Below the pieces are notes generated by a model. That model saw only the letters and a list, made by a program, of their open reading frames with translations, was not told the origin of the DNA and did not search any database. A stretch of 35,979 nt of DNA from the IMG/VR virus record IMGVR_UViG_3300038441_000844, positions 1 to 35,979 of that record. One strand, given 5' to 3'. The stretch's first letter is position 1. Each line of letters begins with the position of its first letter. The stretch comes from a virus. The position numbers and the translations under genes are program-made. Positions 17,510-32,391 of this stretch are shown in pieces.

Positions 17510-18385
17510 TTAAGCAGCGGTCAGGACACGATTGACTGTGTCCATCCCTTTGTAATACGTGTCGTACAAGCGAGCGTTGATTTCGCCCACAGTGATCTGC
17601 CCGTCCTTGTCGTAGTCGAAGCCAGAGTTCTGACGATAGCCAGTAGCCTCAACGTCCTTACGGAAGATAACGGTATCAGCGGACAACCCAACCGCTTTCG
17701 GGTAGAAGATGGTCAGGTAGAAGTCTTCCAGCTGCGTGTAGGTCTTGCCACGCTTCGCCCACATGTCGAAGTAAGCGAACACCCACTTGAGTTGTTCGAT
17801 CTGTGGCAGAACCCGCAGCGATGCGGTGGTGGTCTTGAGGTCAGCAGCCGCCATGTCGCCGAACTGGATCAAGCCGAAGTACTTGGCCCCTGCACCGTTC
17901 TGAATGGTCGGGCTGAACGTACCACCCGTTTCAAAGCACATGCAGGACATCAGCCAGTCCACAGCTTCATCAGGCCAGTTGCGGGCTTTGCAACCCGCGA
18001 TGACCGCGTCCAGAAACTCCTTCGATACCTTGGTACTCCAGGCTGCCTTATAACGAGGCAAACGGTGTTGTTGGATATAGCCATCGAGTGCTTTACGGAC
18101 ACCCGATTTAGTGCCTTTACCGTAGACACCATCCACCTTACCGTCGTACAGCCCAGCCGCCTTCAGCAGATCCTGAATGCTTACAATGGCTTTCACCGTT
18201 GCATCACCTGGAATCGTCGAAGGAGGAATGTTCGGTAGGTCCATGCGTTTGTACGCGGTGAGCAGGGACATCATGGCGAACAGACTGCCGCCTCCCCATG
18301 CACCGTCGATACCGGAAGTGTAGAGACCACTTTCCTTCAGCATTACCTGAACGTCTTTGATACCGTTGGAGTTTCTGTAGTTCAT
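17510..18385 (-). CDS. Modular endolysin: two peptidoglycan-binding repeats plus lytic transglycosylase
   Basis: Degrades host peptidoglycan at the end of infection. The order is: wall-binding repeat 1 at about residues 8-45 (IKDVQVMLKESGLYTSGIDG), repeat 2 at about 65-105 (SIQDLLKAAGLYDGKVDGVY), then a transglycosylase domain from about 115. CFETGGTFSP (150-159) supplies the catalytic Glu152, and YFGLIQFGD (169-177) the next family block. The 291-residue length is close to EL188 (292) and the architecture matches phiKZ gp144/EL188/OBP-type lysins. An EF-hand-type calcium loop (DYDKDGQITVGE, 257-268) lies near the C-terminus. No signal peptide, so it needs a holin or similar. It starts one base after the beta-subunit stop. 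Confidence 0.9.
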   Translation of the reverse strand: MNYRNSNGIKDVQVMLKESGLYTSGIDGAWGGGSLFAMMSLLTAYKRMDLPNIPPSTIPGDATVKAIVSIQDLLKAAGLYDGKVDGVYGKGTKSGVRKALDGYIQQHRLPRYKAAWSTKVSKEFLDAVIAGCKARNWPDEAVDWLMSCMCFETGGTFSPTIQNGAGAKYFGLIQFGDMAAADLKTTTASLRVLPQIEQLKWVFAYFDMWAKRGKTYTQLEDFYLTIFYPKAVGLSADTVIFRKDVEATGYRQNSGFDYDKDGQITVGEINARLYDTYYKGMDTVNRVLTAA

Positions 18386-18386
18386 G

Positions 18387-21300
18387 TTACTTACCTCGAT
18401 AGATGGCGATGGCTTGTTTAGTGACCGCGATGGTGAGTTCGCAACTGACCAGCTTGTTACGGAAACTCAACACCATTCGGTTAAACATACCTTTAAGACT
18501 GGTTTTGATCAGAACTTCACGACCATCTTCGGTCATCAGGGGCTTGTGCATGATGCGACCCACTGTGCCTTTCATCTGGTTCGCGATAACGTATTTGTCC
18601 GCGTTGGTACTTGGATCCATGGACTCCACCAAGATGGTGACGAACGCTTTACCAGGCGACAGAATCGGCTTGTTAACGTTCAAGCTGTTAGACACAGCTC
18701 CCTTTACAACATCGGACCCTTCAATCTCTGCGGTTCTCTTGCGGGCTTTGTCCTGAGAGGTGATGAACTTCTTCACCGTCTCCGACATATCTTCGGGTGC
18801 AGAGTTATACACCACGTCGATTTTGATGACCTTGCCGTGATGCTTGGAACGAACTTGCCGGATACCCAGTTTGTTCATTTCCGTGGCGAGACTAACTTCA
18901 GCAACATCGCCCACCAAGTGAGCGTCTTCAACGTTGCATAAAATCGAGTCATAGTCAACAGAATCGCCCACTTTAACTTCGAGGCTGATGTTCTGTACCA
19001 CGTCGATCGCGAAACGCATACCTTTGATGTACGGAGTAACACCTTCCATAGCCAGTTCTTTCGCAATGGCGATGGAGTCTTCGTACACGTCCTGGTCTTC
19101 CACCATGGCAATCCGCACCATGCGCCCTGCTTTCCAAGCCACTTGACCTGGGCAGAAAGCGTCTCGAGCAAACCACTGCTCATCCCAACCAATCACATCA
19201 CCCTTATTAAAGCTATCGCCAACCTTGAGGTCAGTGATCCGGGTATGTCGATGGTATTCACCTGCTGCCTCACCGATAGCCAACCCGAGAGGGTAGACGT
19301 CAGTGGTGCCGTCCTTATACGTCACTCTGAGAGCGTCCTCAGTGACTTCTGTGACCTTGCCAGCGTCAGTAGCTACCTTGCTGTACAGATCGGACGTACG
19401 GTGCGCTACGACGTTCTCGTAGCCGGTACGGAGGATGTTCGGCGTGTAGTTCATTGCACTGACCGCCTGACTCGCTTGAGTCGAGGTAAAGGTCGAACGT
19501 TTCGGGTCATCGTGACCCACGCCGTACTGCAAGTTACCCGTAACCGATACCAAACCCGAGTTGGACGGTTTCTCACCCAGAGCGATGTTACCCCGGAAGT
19601 CTTTGATGCTAGGGTCAGAGGTCAGGTAGGTTACGAAGCCTACTTTACCGCTGTCCTTGTTCGCCTCCGAGATCTTGCCCTTGTAAGTGTCCAGCTGCTG
19701 ACGAGCGCGTTTCACCATGGTGATCTCACTACGACCACCCACACCGCCGAAGGTTACTTCTTCCTGATCCTTCAACTGGTGAATCGGGTTCACCTCTTCC
19801 ACCAAGTTCACCGAGGTATCGGTAATGATGTTGAGGATAACCGCTTCAGGGTTGATGTCGATGGTGTGCTTGCGCTCTTTGCCTTTGTTCCGGTACATGC
19901 GAATGGCTTTCACCAATTCCCGGTACACATGACCCGCAAACCGCTCGTAACCCACGATGCGTTGTTCTTCAATCTCTACTTCATGACGCGAGTAGTCCGT
20001 CTCCAGCAACTTCACAGCGTCGATCAGCAGATAGTGGAAGGACGTCGCATAACCCAACTTCGCCAGCTCTTCCTTGGTCACCGGGTCGATGAACAGGTCG
20101 AACAGGTTCTTCATTTCCTTGAACTGCTGAGGCTTAACCTTTGGATCGCCCATCAATGGAACCCAGATACCTTTCTCGTTGAGATCGGTGCGACTGAAGT
20201 TACTGATGTTGTTCAGCTTCGGCATACCACCGAAGATCAGGCTGGCCAGTTTCTCACGACGGTTGAAGATCAGGTACTCGTCGTTGAAAGCAATAGCGTA
20301 CTCATCTTCACTGAGCTTAGGACGGGTGCCCATTGGAACAGTGCGAGTGGTCGCCTTGGTAACTTGGATCAGCTTGTCGATACCGAAGTAGTAGCAGAGC
20401 ACCACACCAATCGGGAAGTGATACCCGCTGATGTTGATGACCGCGTACTCGATAGGCGCCTTGGCCAAAGACACACCGCACAGACCCTCTAGGGTGCCCA
20501 TCTCGGTGTCGCCGTGGTAAAGGTTACCGTAACTGTCAATCCACAGCGGCTTGCCCGCCTTAACGCCCACCAGGAAGCACTCCTTCTTGGTGTACTTCAA
20601 GCGGTAATCAGGATACTTCTCCAGCAACTCGTCAATACGGAAGTCGAGAGTAACGTCGCCAACAGTAATGAACGTGAACTTCTTCGCCAGAATGCTGTAG
20701 ATCCGTGGGGAGATGTAGTCAGGGTTGTAACCCGAACCTTGGCTGTAAGTCAGGAAGGCAGCCTCACCTTCTTTCTTCATGCCACGGGTACGGATCTGTT
20801 TCACCAGCCACAGACCGTAGTCGTCCACCACCTTCTGGCTACGCAGCACCATGAGCTTGCGGTCATAGTAGCTGGTCAGAGCAACCTTGAAAGCGTTGAT
20901 CTTGCGGATCGGCAGTTCCATGCGTTGCAGTTGCATGTGTTGCTTCACACCGTCAACAGTGAAAGACCCATCCTTCTGCACTTTAGGCAAACGGATCTGG
21001 TGGGTACTTTGAGCGCCGTCTACAGGGTGAAGCTGAATGCGCAGTACGTCGTAGGCACCTTCAACACCGGAAATCGATTCGGTCTTGTAGTCAGCTACCG
21101 CAACACCGGCGTTCTGCACACCCACTACCATCTTGGCAATGTCTTTGTGCAGGAAGCGCTGAGCGTACTCTTGTTTCAATACAGCGGAGCGGCTACGGAG
21201 CATGCTCTCGTCAAGCACGGTGATGAAGTTACCTTCGATCTTGCCGTCCAACGAGTTGATCTCTTCTTGAGAGATGTGCATGTATTCGCCCAGTGTCTGA

Positions 21301-22703
21301 CCGTTCTCCATTTCAATGTGCTGGAAGGCAGTGCCCTTGCGCATGAAGAAGTTTTGTTCAGAGACTGTCAGAACGCCATCACGAGCACGTTCTTCCAAAG
21401 CCGCACGGATGCCAGACTCAGGGGTAGGGAACGCATCCTTGTTGGTCGAGATCTCCACCGAAGTGGTTTCAACGTCCAACAGGGAGTCATCTACGTTACT
21501 TGTCCAATCCCCAGCAGCTTCATCAGCTGTATGTTCTGCCGCATCTCCTTGCCCTTCCACCAGTGCGCCGTTATGTCCCGCGTCACTGCTGAAAACATCA
21601 AGGATGCTACTATCAGCAGAATGATCATCCACAGGCGCATCTTTGCCAGCAGGCGAGGTTGCTTCTCCGTTACCGGATGCTCGTCCTTGCCCTTTCGCAG
21701 CTCCCGCCTTTCCTTGAGCCACTGAAGCGTCGTTTTCCGCTCCACCGGATCCGTTGGCTCCTGTTCCATCTTTCTTCTCCTCGTCGGTAATATCCTTTTC
21801 ACTTACCGAACCACGGGACAAGTTCATCAACGCCAAGTAGAAACGCTTGGTTACGTTGAGACGCTTGGGAGAAACTGCTTCAGTCTTGTCCTTCGTGTTC
21901 AGCTCGTCAAGCCAGGACTTGATCGTTTTAACGTTGATGATCAATGCCTTGCTGTTCGAAGTAAAGATGAAGTGCAGGTCGTCTTCCGCCTGAGGGCTCA
22001 ACTTACCGAACAAACTGTACTCGTACTGTCCCTGTAGGAAAGCCAACAGATCCAGCAACCAGTATGTCCCCTCGGCTTTAGTTACCCGAAGAGATTGGTT
22101 ACTAGGAACTGGAAGACCTTCTTTAAAGCTTCCGATATACTTTTCATAATCGACCATCAACTCTTTGTAAGAGGGAACGTTGATCGGGAGTTCCATTCGC
22201 AGGAACTGTTTACGGGTCTGTGTGCGGGCTGCCTCCTCATTCGCACCCTCAACCAACATGTTCAGCCGGTTGTAATGGATTTCGAAGTTAACGAAGGTCG
22301 CTGCACGTTGAGCCCAGGTTTTGTCCGCAATGCCGTAGTTCTTCACAACCAGCACATCGTTTCGGCGATACACCGTGTTGATGTCTTTGGTCCAGTTGTA
22401 GTTGTAGTGGCTGGCGCGATACGCTTGAATCGCTTTCTTGATGTCGAACGCCAACACACGACCATGCCCCAACACCGGAGTGAAACGAGGCACGAACTCA
22501 ACGAACACGTCTTCTGGGAAGTTAGAGATAAACGCTTCCGACACAGAAGGACCGTACTCACTCGCCAGCTTCGGTACAAAGTGCACCAAGGCTTGCTTCG
22601 GCATGACAATCTCGCTCACGCCGATAAAGTTGGGCTCTATGAGCTCCTGTTTCTTCCGTTGTACAAACAGCTTGAAAAACTCACTGTACGTAAGAAGCCG
22701 CAT
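18387..22703 (-). CDS. Phage RNA polymerase beta subunit (virion RNAP, phiKZ gp178-like)
   Basis: This is the beta-type subunit of a multisubunit RNA polymerase, probably packaged to transcribe early genes. The C-terminal third shows beta motifs. VGDSFNKGDVIGWDEQ followed by RIAMVEDQDVYEDSIAIAKE at about residues 1190-1235 matches the family's YEDS-x-x-I element. NADKYVIANQMKGTVGRIM at about 1367-1385 corresponds to the GDK-x(2)-GRHGNKG block near the active centre. The N-terminal part is a lobe/protrusion-like domain. Residues about 298-425 form an acidic Ala/Gly/Asp/Ser-rich stretch with unusual codons (many GGA, GCA), which coincides with a second open frame (see 21491-21769). It begins 2 bases after the beta' stop (GAGGAGTAACAATG), so the two are coupled. 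Confidence 0.88.
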   Translation of the reverse strand: MRLLTYSEFFKLFVQRKKQELIEPNFIGVSEIVMPKQALVHFVPKLASEYGPSVSEAFISNFPEDVFVEFVPRFTPVLGHGRVLAFDIKKAIQAYRASHYNYNWTKDINTVYRRNDVLVVKNYGIADKTWAQRAATFVNFEIHYNRLNMLVEGANEEAARTQTRKQFLRMELPINVPSYKELMVDYEKYIGSFKEGLPVPSNQSLRVTKAEGTYWLLDLLAFLQGQYEYSLFGKLSPQAEDDLHFIFTSNSKALIINVKTIKSWLDELNTKDKTEAVSPKRLNVTKRFYLALMNLSRGSVSEKDITDEEKKDGTGANGSGGAENDASVAQGKAGAAKGQGRASGNGEATSPAGKDAPVDDHSADSSILDVFSSDAGHNGALVEGQGDAAEHTADEAAGDWTSNVDDSLLDVETTSVEISTNKDAFPTPESGIRAALEERARDGVLTVSEQNFFMRKGTAFQHIEMENGQTLGEYMHISQEEINSLDGKIEGNFITVLDESMLRSRSAVLKQEYAQRFLHKDIAKMVVGVQNAGVAVADYKTESISGVEGAYDVLRIQLHPVDGAQSTHQIRLPKVQKDGSFTVDGVKQHMQLQRMELPIRKINAFKVALTSYYDRKLMVLRSQKVVDDYGLWLVKQIRTRGMKKEGEAAFLTYSQGSGYNPDYISPRIYSILAKKFTFITVGDVTLDFRIDELLEKYPDYRLKYTKKECFLVGVKAGKPLWIDSYGNLYHGDTEMGTLEGLCGVSLAKAPIEYAVINISGYHFPIGVVLCYYFGIDKLIQVTKATTRTVPMGTRPKLSEDEYAIAFNDEYLIFNRREKLASLIFGGMPKLNNISNFSRTDLNEKGIWVPLMGDPKVKPQQFKEMKNLFDLFIDPVTKEELAKLGYATSFHYLLIDAVKLLETDYSRHEVEIEEQRIVGYERFAGHVYRELVKAIRMYRNKGKERKHTIDINPEAVILNIITDTSVNLVEEVNPIHQLKDQEEVTFGGVGGRSEITMVKRARQQLDTYKGKISEANKDSGKVGFVTYLTSDPSIKDFRGNIALGEKPSNSGLVSVTGNLQYGVGHDDPKRSTFTSTQASQAVSAMNYTPNILRTGYENVVAHRTSDLYSKVATDAGKVTEVTEDALRVTYKDGTTDVYPLGLAIGEAAGEYHRHTRITDLKVGDSFNKGDVIGWDEQWFARDAFCPGQVAWKAGRMVRIAMVEDQDVYEDSIAIAKELAMEGVTPYIKGMRFAIDVVQNISLEVKVGDSVDYDSILCNVEDAHLVGDVAEVSLATEMNKLGIRQVRSKHHGKVIKIDVVYNSAPEDMSETVKKFITSQDKARKRTAEIEGSDVVKGAVSNSLNVNKPILSPGKAFVTILVESMDPSTNADKYVIANQMKGTVGRIMHKPLMTEDGREVLIKTSLKGMFNRMVLSFRNKLVSCELTIAVTKQAIAIYRGK
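21491..21769 (-). CDS. Candidate overprinted membrane protein nested in the RNAP beta gene (92 residues)
   Basis: A second frame on the same strand as beta. The ATG at 21769 has GAGGAG exactly 7 bases upstream. The product has a charged, helical N-terminal segment of about 44 residues (TTLQWLKERRELRKGKDE within it), one transmembrane helix at about 46-63 (RLWMIILLIVASLMFSAV) and a 28-residue tail (DITAHWWKGKEMRQNIQLMK). Its codons look normal for this phage (CTG for Leu, AAG for Lys, C/G third positions), while the beta frame over the same DNA turns low-complexity. It lies in the transcript that carries the endolysin next downstream. Single-pass topology would fit a class III-type holin, an inner-membrane spanin-like or another lysis factor; this is inference. 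A chance open frame is the alternative. Confidence 0.6.
   Translation of the reverse strand: MEQEPTDPVERKTTLQWLKERRELRKGKDEHPVTEKQPRLLAKMRLWMIILLIVASLMFSAVTRDITAHWWKGKEMRQNIQLMKLLGIGQVT
21777..21782 (-). promoter_or_regulatory. Shine-Dalgarno of the nested gene
   Basis: GAGGAG on the minus strand, 7 bases before the ATG at 21769. In the beta frame the same bases encode Asp-Glu-Glu-Lys-Lys, so the site is inside coding sequence. Its quality equals or exceeds that of ordinary genes in the window and it decides the start of the nested frame. Confidence 0.6.
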
Positions 22704-22705
22704 TG

Positions 22706-24322
22706 TTACTCCTCAAGACCACTCGTAGCGGCCTTCAACATAAACAGAATCGGTTCGTTGACAGGGTCATAAAGGAAACGACCGCTGCCACTGATGTAGT
22801 ACTCGCGCTTGCCGAACAGATCCCGAACTTCGGACTTACTGTCTTCGGCGTTCACGCTGTTGCTGTTCAACTGGTCACCGTCGTGGTCGGAGTCATAGCC
22901 CGCTTCACGAGAAGGGTCAACCGACATGGCATCGAAGTAGTCAGGGGTTTCCGTCCGGTGCGGGTAACGGGAACAGGTTTCCATTACTTCCCAATCAGGG
23001 GTGCGAATGGTCCGAGGCTTAGCCCCAGTGATCGTCACCAAGTTCACCTTGGCAGGAACGATAGAACCGATACCAATGATCGGGTAACGTGTCTGCTGGG
23101 TGATCTGATCCATGACTGTGGCTTGACACGACAGGTAGAACAGCTCCATGTACGTGATTGGACGAACCAGTTTACGGTCCTTATCCTTGGGGAGATCGTT
23201 GATGTCATGCAGCACACAAACGTCCTCACCATCGTCATAGACTAGGGCGAGGTAGTGTTTTTCAACGATGATCTCCTTGTTCCGCAGATGCACGTTGGAG
23301 AAGCCGTTGAAGAGTTTGTTCAACCCAGTAAAGGTCGACCACTTCTCAACCACATACGGTGGCACTTCGACGTACTCGTATTCGAGGGTCTTGGTGTTCA
23401 CCAGCTTCACGGTCTGCGAACCAGGAGTAAAGATGTTCTGCAAGTACTTGCTCAGAAGAGCGTGCACACAGACGTACTGGTTGTTCAGCAGCGCTTGATA
23501 CAGACCGATGTCCGTGGAGTTAGGGTTAACCCCGTTGGTCTTGAACAAGTCTGCCCGAGAGACCTTACGCGCAGTAATAACGTTACGGGTACCCGACACC
23601 ACACCACGAGTAGACAAACGCTTCTGGAACAAACCCCCTTTACCTTCAGTCAAACCGAAGAGGTATTGGTCGATGTCGTTGAAGGCACTTTGCAGGGACC
23701 AACGCACGTTGTCGTACAGTGGGTTCTCCGCATCCCGTTGACTACCCAAACTGATGACTCGAGTCTTGAAGATCAGCTTCCTATATAGGTCGGTGATCTC
23801 GGGCTCAGTCGGAGCACCGCTCGGTTGGAACTGAATGTCCCGCAGACCCGCCGGAATCACCAACACTTTATTGCTGACGGCGATGTCACGGAACTGAGTG
23901 ACCAACTTCACCCGCTGCTTACGTTTGTAGGAATCCGTCGTAGCAGGAACGATTTCGTGGAAGTGACGCATAAAGAAAGCAAAACCCGTCTCCCCGTCGA
24001 GGAGGTTGGATTTTATGAAATCTTTAGCCACAGGATCCCATACCGCGTATTCCGTTCCTTTCAGAATACTGAGGTACAAGGATTTTATTTGCGTCAGTGC
24101 TTTGAAGTAAGTTGGGTTGAAGAGCCCGAGCTTTGTGTCAATGTACGCTTCAGTTCTATCGCGCTCTTTGCTACCCAGCTTGCCGAAAATCTCTAGGGAA
24201 TAAAGACCCTCGTCATTCAAGTTCTGGGTCATCCCTTCAAAGGCGTCCGTGGACGTTACTTCTTTGAAGACGCCCGGCAGAATAGTCTTTGGATCTAACA
24301 ACTTAAGGTTTGTGGGCTTCAT
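22706..24322 (-). CDS. Phage RNA polymerase beta' N-terminal half (phiKZ gp180-like)
   Basis: The 538-residue protein carries the universal catalytic signature of beta' near its end. YDSDHDGDQLNSNSV at residues 476-490 corresponds to NADFDGDQM, with the magnesium-binding Asp479, Asp481 and Asp483. Upstream, FQKRLSTRGVVSGTRNVI at about residues 233-250 fits the family's K-R-V-D-F-S-G-R-S-V-I block. Only about 55 residues follow the signature, so the bridge helix and trigger loop half must be made by another gene not in this window, as in the split polymerases of phiKZ relatives. AAAGGG precedes the ATG. Only 29 bases separate it from the divergent giant gene, so its promoter must lie inside that gene's 5' end. 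Confidence 0.88.
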   Translation of the reverse strand: MKPTNLKLLDPKTILPGVFKEVTSTDAFEGMTQNLNDEGLYSLEIFGKLGSKERDRTEAYIDTKLGLFNPTYFKALTQIKSLYLSILKGTEYAVWDPVAKDFIKSNLLDGETGFAFFMRHFHEIVPATTDSYKRKQRVKLVTQFRDIAVSNKVLVIPAGLRDIQFQPSGAPTEPEITDLYRKLIFKTRVISLGSQRDAENPLYDNVRWSLQSAFNDIDQYLFGLTEGKGGLFQKRLSTRGVVSGTRNVITARKVSRADLFKTNGVNPNSTDIGLYQALLNNQYVCVHALLSKYLQNIFTPGSQTVKLVNTKTLEYEYVEVPPYVVEKWSTFTGLNKLFNGFSNVHLRNKEIIVEKHYLALVYDDGEDVCVLHDINDLPKDKDRKLVRPITYMELFYLSCQATVMDQITQQTRYPIIGIGSIVPAKVNLVTITGAKPRTIRTPDWEVMETCSRYPHRTETPDYFDAMSVDPSREAGYDSDHDGDQLNSNSVNAEDSKSEVRDLFGKREYYISGSGRFLYDPVNEPILFMLKAATSGLEE

Positions 24323-24351: not shown

Positions 24352-27300
24352 ATGGCTGACGATTTTGATATGGATTGGGGCGACGACCCCTTTTCGGGGG
24401 ACATGAGTTTTGACAGTGATTTTGACACCCCGTCCAACCATGGCTTCCTGCGTTCGTTCACCACGGGGTTTCTGAGCGGTTTGGTGGAGAAGACCGTCGG
24501 TGATACTGACGCTCGAATCGACACCTTAAAGATGGTGTTGCCGCGCAGTTACCTGGGAGCGTTCAGCACATTAAGTGATCTGAACCGCCGTCGTGCAGAA
24601 TTGATGCAAGAGATCAAAGGCGACTCCTACGAGTCTGTCAAAGATCTGCAATACCTCGCTGGGCGCGCTGCGGATAAGCTCCGCAAGATTGCCCCTAATA
24701 AGATCGCTGACGGTTTTCAGAACTTTAGCCAAAATGATTTCAGTGATTGGGAGAAGGCAAGCAGTGGTGGTCGTGATTCCGGACCAAGTCTTTCCGACAC
24801 CACCGAAGACGAAATAAAATCAGCCATTGACAACGCCGACGCCAACTCCGTGCTTGAACGGGAGACGATGATCGGTTCGGCTGGCGCTATCACGGACATG
24901 ATGGCAAACGTCGGTGGTCGTACTCTGGCTAACTTGCAGGCCATGGGTCAAGGGACGGTACGTACTAACCAGCTGTTGGAGCAGATTGTTGACTTCCAAC
25001 GTCGGGTTCAGGCGCGCAACGATGCCTTGAAACTTAACATCATGACCCGCTCGTATTTGACGGACGCTAAGTTCTACAAGTTCGTTGAAGCGAGTAACCA
25101 CCGTATTGTTGAAGAGCTGAAGAAGATCAGCGACAGTTCTGCCAAGTCTGACTACGAAAAGACCACACACTCCCAAGCGGTGCGTAAGACTATCCGGGAA
25201 TCCGTGTTCAGTTCGGTCAAGAGCAAGATCGGCGGTATTTCTGGTTTCATCGATGATCGTTTTGGCAAGAACGCTCGTGGCGAGTTCACTGGCGGCTCAA
25301 ACGAGCTGATCAGTTCGATTCGCATGGCTGCCGAGATGACCGAGGGGATGGACCTTAACCTCGGGCAGATGTTGGGTAACGCTGCTGCGGGTATCTTCAT
25401 CAACAACCTCCCCCGGATGCTTAAATCGGGCAAGGCGAAGAAGTACCTTGACGACTTCAAGAAGAAGTTCCCTGCACAGGCTAAGTGGGCGGAAGATGCT
25501 TACATCCGCATCACTGACTTGGGTAACGTGGCGTCGTACGGTCTGACCAACGCCGAAGGCCTGACCAACACCATGGCGAAGTATTACCAAGGTGGCCAGA
25601 CGTGGAGCGAAGCCGAGGATTACGAACAGTATCTCGACCTGCTTCCTGAGGGTGAGCAGAAGCTCAGCAAAGTTGAGTGGACTCTCATCAGCAACGCTCG
25701 CAAGATTGGTAACAAAGCGTTTGCAGGTGTGTTCGACAACATGAGCCGTTCCAACGGTACTCAGTACACCTTAGCGCGGCGTACGTTGGACAATGGTCAC
25801 GAGCAAGCTTTGTGGAACAACCGCTCCGACCGTACCCTCAACGAAGTGTTGCCACAATGGCTGAGTCAGATCCACTTGTCTCTTGAGAAGTTCCGGACAG
25901 GCGATGATGACATGCGGGCTATGACCTACGACTATGTCAAGGGTAAGTTCAACAGCCATGATCAGAAGATCTCCACCGTTCTCAACCAAGTGTTGGACAA
26001 ACGTCAGTTCAGTAACCAAGCGACAATGGCGAACAATTTGGCGGAACAGATCGATGCTGATGGTGCCCTGACTCCGGAGGCTAAACGAGAGTTGGCGTTC
26101 CTTCTGGCGAAAGACACTGATGCGGACATGGGTTTCAGTCCTTACAACTACCTGCACGCCGATAAGGAGCACGGCGTGCCTCCTGCATTGGCGGCTGAGA
26201 TCAAGCGCATGATTCAGGTGCAGTTTGGTATCAGCGACGATCACATCAAGGCCTTTAATGAAGGTACTGATGTAGACCGCTCGAAGGCTTTGATTTACAT
26301 GCCGACTGAAAAAGGTCGTCAGCGAGTGGCAGAACTGGCGCCTTCGGCCAAATCGCTGGGTGCTTTCGCCCCTGACATCACCAACCGACTGGATGTCCTT
26401 AAGTCGAGCGGGTATTACGATGCAATGAAAGAAGCGGGTATCGTCACTACAACGGACGGTCAAGACAACGTCGACATGGAGAAGATCTGGGGTACGCTGA
26501 AAAGCTTCATCCAAGACACCAAGCGTGAGACCGCCCCACGCGTTCCTGACGCCGTTCCGTTGCCAAGCCGCGCCTTCGGTGGGGGTTATCCTCCGCAACC
26601 TGCTCCGCCTACCCCAGGACCTCTCCCACTGCCTGGTCCTACTCCCGTTATTCCGGAGTCGATCAAGCTGGATGGTTTGGAAGACCTGACCAAGTCCATG
26701 AGCGGTATGGAGGGCTTGAAGGAGACCATGGAACAGCTGGGCAAGTCCTTCTCGGGATACCGTCCTCCTGATGCACCTCCGACGGTGGACATCGTTCCTA
26801 TCACCACAGGGCTCGAAGGGATCAGTGCTAAGCTTGAGCAGATGCTTGCTCTGGGGACTACTCGTAACCAGATCCTGACCGACATCCTCCTGCGTCAACC
26901 GGCTGAAGCCAAGCCGTTGTCCGAGAGTGATGAGAAGGAAGTGTCTCGTGAGAAGAAAAGTCTCCTTGATAAGCTGAAGGGAACTTCGTTCAAGGATCTC
27001 TTTAACAGTGGCGTTGAAAAGCTGATGGACAACCAACCGCTGATCCTGGGTGGGTTGTTGGGTGGTCTGGCTGGCTTGGCGGTCTACGATAAGAAGAGCG
27101 CTGCGTTGCTGGCGGGTGGCGCGATTATCGCTGGCGGCTACATGAAGCTGAAAAGCCTCAAGTCCAAAGAAGCTGACGATACACAGGACCTTTACGAGGA
27201 AGGGGCAGAGAACCCTATTCTGGAGGCGTCCAAGCTTCAGAACGGCGATTACTACGATGCCACTAAGGGCTTCTTGATCAAGTCCTGGAAAGACATCACT

Positions 27301-30300
27301 GGCAGTGTTGTGGACAACGTCACCAAGGTTGTGATTGGTGCTCGTCGTTTGGCCGGTAAACTCTTCACTTCGGAGAATAAGGAAGTCTTCCTGAGTGGTC
27401 TGGACAAGGTGCGGGAATACCTGCTCAAGGCGTACCACTTCATCGATCCGTTCAAACGGGTTAAACGTTGGGGTAATGCGCTGCGTACTCGCTTCTACCA
27501 GATGGACGTGTATAAGGAAGGGGAAGATTCACCGACACTCGTTGGGAAACGTTTTGAGTCGGGCGCTTATTGCAAGCGTAACGAATCGGGTGAGTTGGAG
27601 GTCATCAACGGCTGGAACGAGATTGATGGTCCGGTCTACACGCCTGAGGGTGAGGTCATCATTACTCAGGACGAGTACGACCGTGGGTTGCGTACCTCGA
27701 TGGGGGTCAGTGTTAACAAGCTGCAAGAAGGCTCCAAGAAATTGGGTCGACTGGGCTTGGACTTCCTCGGTAAGGTGAAAGACAAAGCCTTGCCAATGAT
27801 GGGAATGGCCGCGGATAAAGCGAAAGGTGCGATGACTGTTAGTTACGCGCCGATTGTGAACTCCGTAGATCGCATCTACAACCTGTTGCTCAAACACTGG
27901 GGCTACCAGCAGGAAGTAGACATTGAACTGCCTGAGCCGACCGTACAGCCTGTGGCAGGTCCTACCAAGGATCAACCAGGTACACCAAAGGGAACCCTCA
28001 TCCCTACCATCGTGGAGAAACCCGAAGCGGATGTTGTTGATCCGAACAGGCCTTTCCCGAAGAACCCTTCCATCAAGCCTAAGACCCCAATGGAGAATGC
28101 GGTCGAGAAGGTTAAAGAGGATCTCGAAAGCAATACCCCTCAGGGTCGTCTGAACTCCCTTGCTGACAAGAAGGAGAAGAGTGAAGAGAAACGGAAAGCG
28201 GACTCTGAAGAAGCTCTGATCTACATGGCCAAGAACTTTGGCTTCGGTGCTAAGCCGGGTGAAGAGGAGAAGAAAAAGAGTCAAGGTCTGTTCGGTCTGC
28301 TGGCCAGTGGCTTTGGCGCTATCGCCAGTGGCATTGCTGGGATCACTACTTTCTTCACCAAGCGACTGTTCAGTGGTTTCCAAACCCTGTTCAGGTTCGG
28401 CTCTCTTGGTTTGAAGGTATTCCCTATCTTGGCGACCGGTATCACTGCGGTTGCTAAAGGGATCTTCACCCTCATTAAAACTCGCAGCGTTACTGAAGCT
28501 GGTGGTTCGGTATGGGATACTCTCACCGGGGGTGGTGAAGAAGATGCTGGTGAAGGCAAGAAGGGCAAGGGTAAGAAAGGCAAGAAAGGCAAGAAGGGTG
28601 AGAAAGCCCCTCGAACCGCGGGCAGTCGTTTGAAGACCGGTGTCAAAGGCGTTGGGTACGGCATGGCGGCTGGGATGGCTACTGACTTCCTGATGGATAG
28701 CGGTATTGTCGACGAAGACTCGGCTACCGGGACAGTGTTGGATGCGGCGAGTACGGCGGCCACTGCTTACGGCGGTTACCAAATGGCCGCTGGTGTTGCG
28801 ACAGCCGCTGGTCTTGACATCAGTGCAGGTGCTGTAGCGACGGGCGTGGCTGCTGGCGGTGCTGCTGCTGCTTCTTGGGTGGGTGGTACAGCTGCGGCTG
28901 GTATGGTGGCGAACCTCGGCATTGCCGCGCTCCCTATGCTGTTGAACCCGTATGTCTTGGGTGCGATTGCTGTGGGTGCTGTTGGTTACGGGATCTACCG
29001 TTTTGTGAACCGTGGCGAAGGGAAACAGTTCGAACTTCGTATGGCTCAGTACGGTGTCTCTGACCCGGATTCCGATCTGGCGAAGAAGATCCTGAAAGCG
29101 GAAGAGATGCTTCTTTCCCATGTCGTCATCGGTAACGGTCGCGCTTCGTTCTCGAAGCAAGCCCCTATCAGTGAAGTGATTCAGATGTTTGTAAGCGATC
29201 CGAAGAACAACAAGGAAGTCGGTGACGTCTTTACTTGGTTCAACGGTCGTTTCAAGCCTGTGTTGCTGACGTACATGGCTTGCCTTGACACCATCAAGAT
29301 GAAGTCCTTGAAGGAATACGACGAGGGCAAAACGCAAGACATCTACAAGGTGGCGAAGCAGACGCACGCGGCACTGAACGGGGTTCAACCTTACCCGTAC
29401 TCCATCACGGCGAAGATCGATGCCGATACCCCTATCCTCGGTGAGAAGGCAACCCTGATCCGGGTTAACAACTTGCTGGGTGAGCTGAAGGATTACATCG
29501 ACCGCAAGACACCATCTGAAGACCTGAACCCTATCACCACGCCTAAGGCTCAAAGTAAGGCGGGGCTTGAGAAGGAGAAGGCTGAGCTGAAACAAACCGT
29601 GGAAGGACCACGCGGTTTCTTTGACAGCAAAGAGAAGATGGCTCGGGTAGCCAAAGCTGAAACCCGCCTGCAACAGGTTGACGAGGAAATCAAACGCCTC
29701 AACGACTCTTACAAAGCTGGTGGAATTGTCGCTCAGATCTACATCAAGGATTTGATGCCGGACGACAAGGCAATGGACCTGATGACCGCCATCCGCGCTG
29801 CCTGCTACGGCAACGAGGAAGATGTTACATGGCGTGTCGAAGCGGTGATGAAGCTGGAGCGTTACTGCGAACCTTTGTTTGCTGATCGTGGGGAGTCGAT
29901 GGAGTTCACTGGCCAGATTGGTCAGATCTTCAGTCTGTTCAAAGATTCCTTCCGGGTTAGCGATGGTGATGCAGACGATTGGTGCCTGTGGTTCCGTGAC
30001 CGGTTCTTGCCGGTTCTGACGACCTACATGAACACCATGAAGACCTATCGCCGTGGACGCCCTGCCGTGGTGTGGAAGACCCTGTCGGCAACGGCTCGGT
30101 ACGAAATCGCCAAGGCATTGGTTGAAACGAAAGGTAAGGGTACGCTGTGGTTTGACTTCTCCATCTGGACTGTACGGGCATCTCCTTTCAAAGGCACTAA
30201 GTCTCCCGCTAAACCTGACAAGGTAGATCGGATGCTGAAGCTGCTGGGTGAAGCCAGTACTGCGGCGAAGTTAAAAGATCCTGAAGCAGAGGCCGGTAAA

Positions 30301-32391
30301 ACCAACGCACAAACTTGGGCGAAGACTGTATCCCCGCACAAGGTCGGTGGCGACTTCCAACCTGAGGCGCCTAACGTCGATGACGTGAGCAAAGCCAAAA
30401 CCCGTGGTGAAGTAGCGGGCGGTGGTCAGTTCGGTACCAATGGGTCTGGGACAGGCAACACGTACTCGGCAGGCGGTGTGTATCAAACGCCTTCCAACAA
30501 GTACGGGTTCGTTCCACTGGGTGGTGACTCCGATACCAGTCACTTGGACATGTCGGGTGTTAAAGCTCAGGAAGGGAATGACAAAGGGGTTAAGGTTCCC
30601 AAGAAGCTGGCTCAACAAATCCTGATTCGGGAAATGCTGAAACAAGGCTTTACGGATCCTCGGGAGATTGCGGAAGTACTGGCGCTGACGGATTACGAGT
30701 CGGGCGGTTATCAGAACACCACTGAGAGCCTGAAGTACTCTGATCCGAAACGTTTGGCGAGCATGTTCAGGGAAGTGAAGAGCGTCGAACAAGCGCGCAT
30801 GCTGATTGACCAAGGTGAGGTGGCCATTGCCAACACTGTTTACGGTGGCGGTAAAGGTGCATCCATTGGTAACCGTGAACCAGGAGACGGTTGGAAGTAT
30901 CGTGGGCGTGGTTTCATTCAGCTCACGGGTAAAGCGAACTACGCCAAGACCGGACAAGAGTTGGGGATTGACCTGGTTAACAAACCGGAACTCGCCTCCA
31001 ATGACCCTAACGTCATGGCCGCTGTCGCTGTTAACTTCTTCAAGAACAGCAAGCTTCTGCGCAGTATCAGTCAGACCGGCAACTTCGGTGAAGCCGCAAA
31101 AGGACTTAACGGCGGTAACGAACTTCCAGGGATGCCTAAACGGTATCAGTTGTACCTGTCTTACCTGGAACAGTTGCAGAAAGGCGAACTCTCCACGGAA
31201 ACCAGTACTGCCGAGGACCCAGCAGCTGCCGAAGGGCAAACGGCTGGTCAGATGTACGGTGGTGGCGGTTCCAGCGGTGGTGGCTCTACAGGGGCTCCTG
31301 CGGCAAGTGGTGGGGGTGGCGAAGCTCCAATGATGGGAAGCGGTAATCTGCCTTCTCTCGCTAACGCACCTGCGGGTGGCGGAGCATCTGGTAACTATCA
31401 GACTCCAGCTCCAGCGGGCGGTGGTGGGTACGGTAGTAACCCTGAGATGGATCCAGCCGCTGTTCCGTTCAGCGGGCCATACCAAGACTCCGACTTGCTG
31501 GTTAACAGCAATGCTTCGGGGACTAGTGGGCTTCGTCTGAAATCGGCTGAGTCGGTTGCTGGTGGTAAGGCTCACCCGGGTCTTACAGCGTTGTGCAAAA
31601 TGATTCAACAGCGAGTACCGGGCTTCAAGGTGTTCACTGCTCTGAACGACGCGTACCACGTTAACAAAGGTTCTAAAGGGGCTCACCCTAAAGGACTGGC
31701 GGCTGACTTCACGTTGACCAATGGCATTGCAGGCAGTGATCGTGCTGCGACGATGGTAACGGAGATTCTGCGTCAAGCAGGTCTGCAACCCGGTGCCGAG
31801 TTCTTGGTCATCAACGAGTACAAGCGGAAAACTGCCATCGGTACAGGCGGTCATGTTCACGCGGGCTTTAAGTCGCCAGCGGCAGCACAGAAGTTCTTGG
31901 ATGCAGCAGGTGGTACCCAGACCAACGGTCAGGACACTACCGGTACTGGCGGTGGAGCGGAAGTAGCGCCTGAAGAGGCACCAAACCGTGCACAGCCAAC
32001 CCTGCCACCAGGTAACCCAATGTCTGCACCGGATGAAGAAGGCGGTGCCGCAGCTCCAAGCGCACAACCAGCTTCTGCTGCACCGGGTGCTGGCTTCACA
32101 GGCTTGCCTCTTCCTAATCAGCCACCTCCTCAGCAACCGCTTCCAGAGGGTTACAAAGGACCGGCGCCAGCTCCTCAGGCGCCAGCACCTGTTGCTCAAG
32201 CACCGAAGGCAGCTCCGGCTCCTGCGACGCCTGATAACAGTGCTCAAGTGGCTGAGCTGATGAAGAGCTTGATTGCCGCAACACAATCTTCTGGGGGTGA
32301 CAACGCGCAGTTGTTGAAAGCCGTCCTAGATCAACTGGTTCAACTGAACAAGAAAGGGGAGAAAACTCCTCAAGGCGTGAAGGTGAACTAA
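24352..32391 (+). CDS. Giant virion protein with GH19-type lysozyme and M15-like peptidase domains (phiKZ gp181 position)
   Basis: This 2679-residue tail protein is likely to open the cell wall during DNA entry and may also act as tape measure. Order: very acidic N-terminus (1-26); helical region to about 720; Pro-rich linker (730-765); Gly/Ala hydrophobic segments at about 896-934, 1313-1376 and 1464-1553; Lys/Gly run at about 1400-1418; two copies of a diverged domain (about 1577-1720 and 1804-1973). A GH19-like domain follows at about 2075-2265, with YESGG (Glu2116), TESLKYS (Glu2125) and YRGRGFIQLTG (2183-2193). After a Gly-rich linker comes an M15-like peptidase domain at about 2405-2520, with AHPKGLAADF (His2445, Asp2452) and GGHVHAGF (His2501, His2503). 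The tail is Pro/Ala-rich. AGGAG precedes the ATG. Confidence 0.85.
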   Translation: MADDFDMDWGDDPFSGDMSFDSDFDTPSNHGFLRSFTTGFLSGLVEKTVGDTDARIDTLKMVLPRSYLGAFSTLSDLNRRRAELMQEIKGDSYESVKDLQYLAGRAADKLRKIAPNKIADGFQNFSQNDFSDWEKASSGGRDSGPSLSDTTEDEIKSAIDNADANSVLERETMIGSAGAITDMMANVGGRTLANLQAMGQGTVRTNQLLEQIVDFQRRVQARNDALKLNIMTRSYLTDAKFYKFVEASNHRIVEELKKISDSSAKSDYEKTTHSQAVRKTIRESVFSSVKSKIGGISGFIDDRFGKNARGEFTGGSNELISSIRMAAEMTEGMDLNLGQMLGNAAAGIFINNLPRMLKSGKAKKYLDDFKKKFPAQAKWAEDAYIRITDLGNVASYGLTNAEGLTNTMAKYYQGGQTWSEAEDYEQYLDLLPEGEQKLSKVEWTLISNARKIGNKAFAGVFDNMSRSNGTQYTLARRTLDNGHEQALWNNRSDRTLNEVLPQWLSQIHLSLEKFRTGDDDMRAMTYDYVKGKFNSHDQKISTVLNQVLDKRQFSNQATMANNLAEQIDADGALTPEAKRELAFLLAKDTDADMGFSPYNYLHADKEHGVPPALAAEIKRMIQVQFGISDDHIKAFNEGTDVDRSKALIYMPTEKGRQRVAELAPSAKSLGAFAPDITNRLDVLKSSGYYDAMKEAGIVTTTDGQDNVDMEKIWGTLKSFIQDTKRETAPRVPDAVPLPSRAFGGGYPPQPAPPTPGPLPLPGPTPVIPESIKLDGLEDLTKSMSGMEGLKETMEQLGKSFSGYRPPDAPPTVDIVPITTGLEGISAKLEQMLALGTTRNQILTDILLRQPAEAKPLSESDEKEVSREKKSLLDKLKGTSFKDLFNSGVEKLMDNQPLILGGLLGGLAGLAVYDKKSAALLAGGAIIAGGYMKLKSLKSKEADDTQDLYEEGAENPILEASKLQNGDYYDATKGFLIKSWKDITGSVVDNVTKVVIGARRLAGKLFTSENKEVFLSGLDKVREYLLKAYHFIDPFKRVKRWGNALRTRFYQMDVYKEGEDSPTLVGKRFESGAYCKRNESGELEVINGWNEIDGPVYTPEGEVIITQDEYDRGLRTSMGVSVNKLQEGSKKLGRLGLDFLGKVKDKALPMMGMAADKAKGAMTVSYAPIVNSVDRIYNLLLKHWGYQQEVDIELPEPTVQPVAGPTKDQPGTPKGTLIPTIVEKPEADVVDPNRPFPKNPSIKPKTPMENAVEKVKEDLESNTPQGRLNSLADKKEKSEEKRKADSEEALIYMAKNFGFGAKPGEEEKKKSQGLFGLLASGFGAIASGIAGITTFFTKRLFSGFQTLFRFGSLGLKVFPILATGITAVAKGIFTLIKTRSVTEAGGSVWDTLTGGGEEDAGEGKKGKGKKGKKGKKGEKAPRTAGSRLKTGVKGVGYGMAAGMATDFLMDSGIVDEDSATGTVLDAASTAATAYGGYQMAAGVATAAGLDISAGAVATGVAAGGAAAASWVGGTAAAGMVANLGIAALPMLLNPYVLGAIAVGAVGYGIYRFVNRGEGKQFELRMAQYGVSDPDSDLAKKILKAEEMLLSHVVIGNGRASFSKQAPISEVIQMFVSDPKNNKEVGDVFTWFNGRFKPVLLTYMACLDTIKMKSLKEYDEGKTQDIYKVAKQTHAALNGVQPYPYSITAKIDADTPILGEKATLIRVNNLLGELKDYIDRKTPSEDLNPITTPKAQSKAGLEKEKAELKQTVEGPRGFFDSKEKMARVAKAETRLQQVDEEIKRLNDSYKAGGIVAQIYIKDLMPDDKAMDLMTAIRAACYGNEEDVTWRVEAVMKLERYCEPLFADRGESMEFTGQIGQIFSLFKDSFRVSDGDADDWCLWFRDRFLPVLTTYMNTMKTYRRGRPAVVWKTLSATARYEIAKALVETKGKGTLWFDFSIWTVRASPFKGTKSPAKPDKVDRMLKLLGEASTAAKLKDPEAEAGKTNAQTWAKTVSPHKVGGDFQPEAPNVDDVSKAKTRGEVAGGGQFGTNGSGTGNTYSAGGVYQTPSNKYGFVPLGGDSDTSHLDMSGVKAQEGNDKGVKVPKKLAQQILIREMLKQGFTDPREIAEVLALTDYESGGYQNTTESLKYSDPKRLASMFREVKSVEQARMLIDQGEVAIANTVYGGGKGASIGNREPGDGWKYRGRGFIQLTGKANYAKTGQELGIDLVNKPELASNDPNVMAAVAVNFFKNSKLLRSISQTGNFGEAAKGLNGGNELPGMPKRYQLYLSYLEQLQKGELSTETSTAEDPAAAEGQTAGQMYGGGGSSGGGSTGAPAASGGGGEAPMMGSGNLPSLANAPAGGGASGNYQTPAPAGGGGYGSNPEMDPAAVPFSGPYQDSDLLVNSNASGTSGLRLKSAESVAGGKAHPGLTALCKMIQQRVPGFKVFTALNDAYHVNKGSKGAHPKGLAADFTLTNGIAGSDRAATMVTEILRQAGLQPGAEFLVINEYKRKTAIGTGGHVHAGFKSPAAAQKFLDAAGGTQTNGQDTTGTGGGAEVAPEEAPNRAQPTLPPGNPMSAPDEEGGAAAPSAQPASAAPGAGFTGLPLPNQPPPQQPLPEGYKGPAPAPQAPAPVAQAPKAAPAPATPDNSAQVAELMKSLIAATQSSGGDNAQLLKAVLDQLVQLNKKGEKTPQGVKVN

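Follow-up and report, generated by a model that had tools for sequence, protein, structure and literature searches.

In the viral DNA analysed here, a stretch of 35,979 nucleotides that we call the window, the gene for the beta subunit of the virion RNA polymerase (vRNAP) contains a second open frame, and we regard it as almost certain that this nested frame is a genuine protein-coding gene. Its predicted product is a small protein with one transmembrane (TM) segment. The nested proteins make up a conserved protein family, annotated in none of the 19 carrier records read, that is spread over many sequenced phages, the models EL and OBP among them; the gene for an endolysin lies directly beyond beta. 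We put at about even the chance that the nested gene is both real and the holin of the clade that carries it. The features on which the argument depends, with window coordinates, are the following.

18387..22703, minus strand: vRNAP beta subunit, 1438 aa, within whose gene the overlap lies (PHROG 3148, E=0)
21429..21809, minus strand: acidic low-complexity linker of beta, probably disordered, about residues 299-425 (AlphaFold pLDDT 23-34)
21491..21769, minus strand: nested gene, 92 aa plus stop, with one hydrophobic (transmembrane) segment, in the +1 frame of vRNAP beta
21777..21782, minus strand: Shine-Dalgarno (SD) motif GAGGAG, 7 nt 5' of the nested ATG; the same bases encode Glu-Glu in beta (from the sequence)
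21581..21634, minus strand: predicted transmembrane segment, nested residues 46-63 (Kyte-Doolittle)
22706..24322, minus strand: gene for a polymerase subunit (beta' part) upstream of beta, 538 aa, in the same direction (from the annotation of relatives' gene at the same place)
17510..18385, minus strand: endolysin, EL188-like, without a strongly hydrophobic segment (PG_binding_1, PHROG 4928 and endolysin families; highest KD18 1.18)

The nested frame and the beta linker

A preliminary description of this DNA had reported a 92-residue frame on the beta strand, a GAGGAG seven bases 5' of its ATG and a helix at about residues 46-63, and all three are borne out. The frame begins with the ATG at 21769, runs to 21491 on the minus strand in the +1 frame of beta, and spans beta residues 312-404 of 1438; the GAGGAG is present in the sequence, and the hydrophobic segment is placed by the Kyte-Doolittle scale at residues 46-63. 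The protein is free of cysteine, and 29 residues follow its single TM segment. AlphaFold predicts a helix at residues 37-86 in a model of modest quality (mean pLDDT 67.6), and the charge flanking the segment shows a small bias, +3 on the N-terminal side against +2 on the C-terminal side. The codon-position GC of the nested frame is gene-like (0.59/0.36/0.73, compared with 0.54/0.35/0.65 for beta elsewhere), and that of the beta frame within the overlap is displaced (0.73/0.58/0.35).

Over the overlap beta is rich in Ala, Gly, Asp and Ser, as had been claimed. The accompanying claim of rare codons stands for GGA, which encodes 10 of 17 glycines there and 3 of 89 elsewhere in beta (Fisher p=1e-7), and is weaker for GCA, where the rise is mild only (4 of 19 alanines, against 10 of 87). 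The unusual stretch of beta had also been said to match the nested gene exactly; the two do overlap, but the nested gene covers residues 312-404 and the linker about 299-425. This linker is probably disordered according to its AlphaFold model, which is poor for beta overall (mean pLDDT 44), the conserved C-terminal part scoring nearly as low as the linker; in comparisons of beta with solved structures, matches to bacterial beta were weak only. A scan of five neighbouring genes for overprinting returned nothing comparable to the nested gene.

Conservation and selection in the second frame

The nested gene is present in 28 of the 36 beta genes analysed and absent in eight, phiKZ among them. Of 27 named phages fetched for beta, 19 carry it: EL, RisingSun, Miami, pTD1, N1M2, FishSpeaker, OBP, pEt-SU, Survivor, AH04, SXP01, Kc263, PS1, AhC3_1, D3, VP4B, 2 TSL-2019, PDCC-1 and Aphrodite1. 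These are dsDNA phages of 203-285 kb, and in none of the 19 regions is the nested gene annotated. The eight non-carriers are phiKZ, phiLGB22, Eowyn, SURPRISE13, Ea35-70, Asesino, pVp-JHP1101 and pEa_SNUABM_54. IMG/VR supplied 16 beta loci, 13 of which reach the region (L008, L012 and L014 stop short of it); together with L021, whose hydrophobic segment is marginal (KD18 1.42), this gives 14 of 14 distinct contigs with a hydrophobic frame. The 28-row set excludes the copies and near-copies L001, L002, L004, L006, L011, L016 and L017-L020 but retains the near-copies L005 and L039; L047 duplicates the pEt-SU genome. Alignment A1 comprises 26 of the 28 rows, without L005 and L039. The preliminary description had held that close relatives with stops or no start in the second frame would speak against the gene, and none of the 28 carrier rows is of that kind.

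The carriers occupy one side of a branch (support 100/100) in a tree of the 36 beta rows, a distribution that is consistent with one origin of the nested gene; Ea35-70, on a long branch, joins beside the carriers under the midpoint root. Profile HMMs trained without the group being tested recovered the nested frame as the best six-frame open reading frame in 27 of the 28 loci (E 5e-5 to 5e-20). The remaining locus is that of D3, which keeps the hydrophobic frame but has it ranked second (E 0.12). Among the eight non-carrier loci the best match reached E 0.045, and none fell below E 0.04. The groups held out were EL-like (10 rows), Vibrio (five), OBP-like (seven) and six single phages; PS1, AhC3_1 and D3 are one clade on the tree, so for these phages relatives stayed in the training set.

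Searches of 50,697 phage records by tblastn with four members yielded 16, 14, 18 and 9 records, with the match inside beta in 14, 14, 15 and 9 of them respectively, and no convincing stand-alone copy. We take the matches outside beta for chance; the one in pEa_SNUABM_17 lies antisense to another gene. Weak profile matches to the nested family occur elsewhere in EL, pEt-SU, G002 and phiKZ (E 0.01-0.08). Against Pfam and PHROGs, 26 members gave no convincing family match, and there were no holin families among the families matched.

Substitutions within the overlap follow the nested frame, whose third position is codon position 1 of beta. Between the window and its closest partner, L003, changes at beta positions 1/2/3 number 24/9/5 in the overlap and 98/59/401 outside it, and the beta codons that encode the same amino acid in both are unchanged at 63 of 63 sites in the overlap compared with 842 of 1175 outside. 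Synonymous-site variation was a check that the preliminary description had proposed; beta-synonymous change in the overlap is scarce, in favour of the nested gene. All 12 pairs examined shift the same way inside the overlap, with p from 2e-19 to 5e-5, and the same-codon test falls below 0.05 in nine of the 12, the exceptions being L007/L021, OBP/N1M2 and L013/window; the p-values are given uncorrected, for pairs that are not independent of one another. Along the whole beta gene, the lowest share of position-3 changes falls on the overlap in six of six pairs. A purely relaxed linker would be expected to show equal thirds, and three of these six pairs (window/L003, 2TSL/Aphrodite1 and pTD1/VP4B) reject equal thirds toward beta position 1, with a pooled count of 78/35/20. 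The nested protein is also the better conserved of the two: in the window/L003 pair its identity is 92%, as against 71% for beta over the same bases, and it exceeds that of the beta segment in 295 of 378 row pairs, although in comparisons against the Vibrio phages it is not clearly higher. On these comparisons, the second frame is under purifying selection.

Translation signals point the same way. In 21 of 28 carriers the open frame's first ATG is preceded by an SD match of at least 4 nt, compared with 185 of 981 background ATGs, taken out of frame elsewhere in the same beta genes. With the starts finally chosen, which were partly picked by eye, the figure is 23 of 28, leaving five without. 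By these counts, the nested start with its ribosome-binding site is conserved. The predicted carrier proteins are 66-108 aa long, each of the 28 has one hydrophobic segment (KD18 1.42-2.83), and 27-64 residues follow it. The N-terminal flank of the segment is the more positive in 26 of 28, EL and PS1 being the exceptions, so that by the positive-inside rule the topology is probably N-in/C-out.

These results bear directly on whether the frame could be a by-product of beta, in which the codons of an acidic linker, often T-ending, yield a hydrophobic +1 frame with no product. Length is no evidence against such a chance origin, since 337 of 500 synonymous shuffles of the window beta gene had a +1 frame as long; only one of 500 was as long and about as hydrophobic, but in the other carriers 0 to 60 of 500 shuffles matched on both counts (60 in OBP; the L009 figure refers to a different frame), and the test is weak for any single genome. 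Length and hydrophobicity are thus uneven evidence, and it is the comparative evidence that decides. A chance origin would draw further support from the age of the linker, which probably predates the nested gene, from the pairs window/L015, N1M2/SXP01 and pEt-SU/Survivor, in which the overlap shows no departure from equal thirds, and from the non-carrier pEa_SNUABM_54, whose linker contains a +1 frame of 83 codons that reaches KD18 1.73. That frame, though, lacks an ATG before codon 42 and is not matched by the HMMs; in another non-carrier, phiLGB22, +1 frames of 88 and 65 codons (KD18 0.98 and 1.92) likewise have no HMM match. Given the excess of changes at beta position 1 with scarce synonymous change, the better conservation of the nested protein, its recovery by HMMs across groups and the SD enrichment, we find a chance frame hardly credible, and reject it on the substitution pattern, the identities and the HMM recovery. 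The view that the gene overprints beta, with the linker as its shadow, is strongly supported by the substitution pattern, the codon-position GC and the conservation across a large clade.

Another way to obtain a hydrophobic stretch on the same strand and in the +1 frame would be a frameshift during translation of beta, producing a membrane-anchored N-terminal fragment of the polymerase. In Miami, FishSpeaker and 2TSL the open frame starts just 2-4 codons before the ATG, and in most carriers an SD precedes the nested start. A frameshift fusion is disfavoured by the short open stretch in those three phages, and we consider it highly improbable.

The preliminary description had raised the possibility that the linker is an insertion that arrived with the nested gene. 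We reject this: the non-carriers phiKZ, phiLGB22, Asesino, JHP1101 and others have a similar acidic linker but no nested gene. The beta linker is therefore probably older, and the nested gene was probably born in a linker that already existed. It offers a clear case of gene birth inside a probably disordered linker, and anyone who mutates or annotates these vRNAP genes must reckon with a second protein.

The neighbouring endolysin and the role of the nested protein

The gene next downstream of beta had been called an endolysin, and rightly so: 17510..18385 on the minus strand matches PG_binding_1 and endolysin families. An endolysin-like gene lies directly 3' of beta in 28 of 28 carriers, whereas in seven of the eight non-carriers a tblastn search with six endolysin-type proteins (E 1e-4, within 2.6 kb of beta) found no match, Ea35-70 being the exception. 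The queries came from the window, OBP, pTD1, Miami and AhC3_1 (five of the 28 carriers) and from Ea35-70, and these match themselves; their identity rests on families. For the pTD1 protein the Pfam SLT match falls just short of the cut-off, and the function of PHROG 4928 is given as unknown. The OBP protein matches endolysin families other than the EL188-like ones, and AH04 and SXP01 resemble OBP, so the nested gene persists across different catalytic families of endolysin (OBP type and EL188 type). The lytic activity of the EL188 and OBPgp279 endolysins is described in PMC3352856; both genes lie, as in the window, directly 3' of beta in EL and OBP, and they differ from the nested gene in encoding an enzyme rather than its membrane partner. 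None of the six endolysin-type proteins has a strongly hydrophobic segment. The highest KD18 is 1.48, at the N-terminus of the pTD1 protein, which may be a weak export signal. In Ea35-70 the endolysin-like protein beside beta is gp164 (L041:7109-7819), annotated as hypothetical, and the AhC3_1 gene (L035:6751-8673) encodes 641 aa with a weak LAGLIDADG match that suggests an intein-like insert.

The presence of the linker in carriers and non-carriers alike, of the endolysin in the carriers and Ea35-70, and of the nested gene in carriers only gives a testable order of birth. We suggest, at slightly less than even probability, that the holin of this clade of giant phages arose as an overprint on the disordered linker of vRNAP beta after the endolysin had settled alongside, so that polymerase production and the timing of lysis share message and DNA. 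Under this model the nested gene would be translated by internal initiation from the GAGGAG and the ATG at 21769, on one message common to beta, the nested gene and the downstream endolysin. Its product would be a small inner-membrane protein with one helix, the N-terminus cytoplasmic and the C-terminus periplasmic. It would accumulate late and oligomerise in the inner membrane, which it would open at a fixed moment, giving the endolysin access to the cell wall. Translation, common message, topology and hole formation are all inferred.

A putative holin is the likeliest reading of one apparent N-in/C-out helix, small size and an adjoining endolysin. A small protein with a TM segment (66-108 aa) is predicted in 28 of 28 carriers, in each of which its gene lies beside an endolysin-like gene; the six endolysin-type proteins checked have no evident export signal, as judged from hydrophobicity (highest KD18 1.48, in pTD1). 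The nested protein is thus a concrete holin candidate for EL and OBP. The adjoining endolysin favours a role in lysis, but since the carriers are one clade, the adjacency amounts to about one event, and the two genes may have come together once by historical accident. Ea35-70, with an endolysin-like gene and no nested gene, must achieve lysis in another way; of the two genes, the endolysin may be the older. Holins are very diverse. The class III holin T of phage T4 has one TM segment, N-in/C-out, about 218 aa and a large periplasmic domain; the nested proteins share its probable topology and differ in length (66-108 aa), and PF11031 has no match in 11 genomes. Nor does the holin family PF16083, the other of the two searched genome-wide, and these negatives count in favour of the nested protein as the holin. 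Small single-helix membrane proteins also act as antiholins or superinfection blockers.

A regulator of lysis of this kind, or a membrane protein directed against superinfecting phages rather than a hole-former, seems to us distinctly improbable: one of 26 members matches a SieB superinfection-exclusion PHROG, at the chance level of E=0.16, and the clade-wide conservation would better fit a core function. Somewhat less improbable, though still unlikely, is a real membrane protein with a role outside lysis that works with the virion polymerase or the virion, for example as a membrane tether or in early infection. Such a partner would be expected to be co-expressed with the packaged enzyme, and all 28 carriers do have the nested gene within that of a vRNAP subunit, with no convincing copy elsewhere in the tblastn searches with four members. 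Against it, the polymerase is present but the nested gene absent in phiKZ, Eowyn, SURPRISE13, Asesino and JHP1101, and the endolysin neighbour better fits lysis.

Overprinted lysis genes have precedents. In phiX174, E overprints D, and in MS2, L spans coat and replicase. These resemble the nested gene as small membrane-acting proteins overprinted on an essential gene, which for MS2 L also includes a polymerase gene, but they are single-gene lysis systems of ssDNA and ssRNA phages without an endolysin, whereas the named carriers are dsDNA phages with an endolysin adjoining. The Rz/Rz1 pair of lambda provides a small lysis gene wholly within another gene in the +1 frame (PMC6139136). There the host gene is itself a lysis gene, here an RNA polymerase subunit, and Rz1 is a lipoprotein, whereas the window protein has no cysteine and one TM segment.

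This likeness raises the question of whether the nested protein could be an Rz-like i-spanin, disrupting the outer membrane. A single N-in/C-out TM segment would suit an i-spanin, and the same spanin survey records embedded +1-frame spanin genes and names EL and OBP among the phages with overlapped i-spanin/o-spanin pairs (PMC6139136). It also lists pairs for phiKZ, 201phi2-1 and Ea35-70 (PMC6139136), and phiKZ and Ea35-70 have no nested gene. The 27-64 residues after the TM segment (29 in the window, where the AlphaFold helix continues to residue 86) are short for an Rz-like periplasmic domain, and when the other frame and nearby +1 frames were loosely scanned for a lipobox, candidates turned up at four of 28 loci, none of them in EL or OBP. 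Because phiKZ and Ea35-70 are without the nested gene and EL and OBP without a lipobox partner near the overlap, the nested gene is probably not one of the surveyed spanins, and we consider a spanin role very unlikely, disfavoured by the short part after the TM segment and the missing partner.

Searches of an open-access library turned up no title or displayed abstract that describes such a nested gene. Neither the ZPAH34 paper (PMC10321303) nor the nucleus-forming phage core-genome paper (PMC10299810) uses the word holin in its main text; the word is also absent from PMC8545117, and in PMC3352856 it appears in a reference title only. A putative holin of AR9 is reported to have no homolog in phiRP12/31 (PMC5468394).

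Neighbouring polymerase genes

Several features of the surrounding genes vary among the relatives. Beta is split by an insertion near residue 1067 in EL, FishSpeaker and PS1 (L022, L027 and L034) and is uninterrupted in the window; in EL and FishSpeaker the polymerase genes also have an HNH endonuclease gene next to them. In the window a divergent gene of 2679 aa (24352-32391, plus strand) adjoins the polymerase genes, and its counterpart in relatives is annotated as a lysozyme-domain, tape measure or tail fiber protein. Genes of 162-180 bp are annotated between two polymerase genes, just upstream of beta, in PS1, VP4B, 2 TSL-2019 and PDCC-1 (L034, L037, L038 and L039), and are possibly remnants of a split upstream gene.
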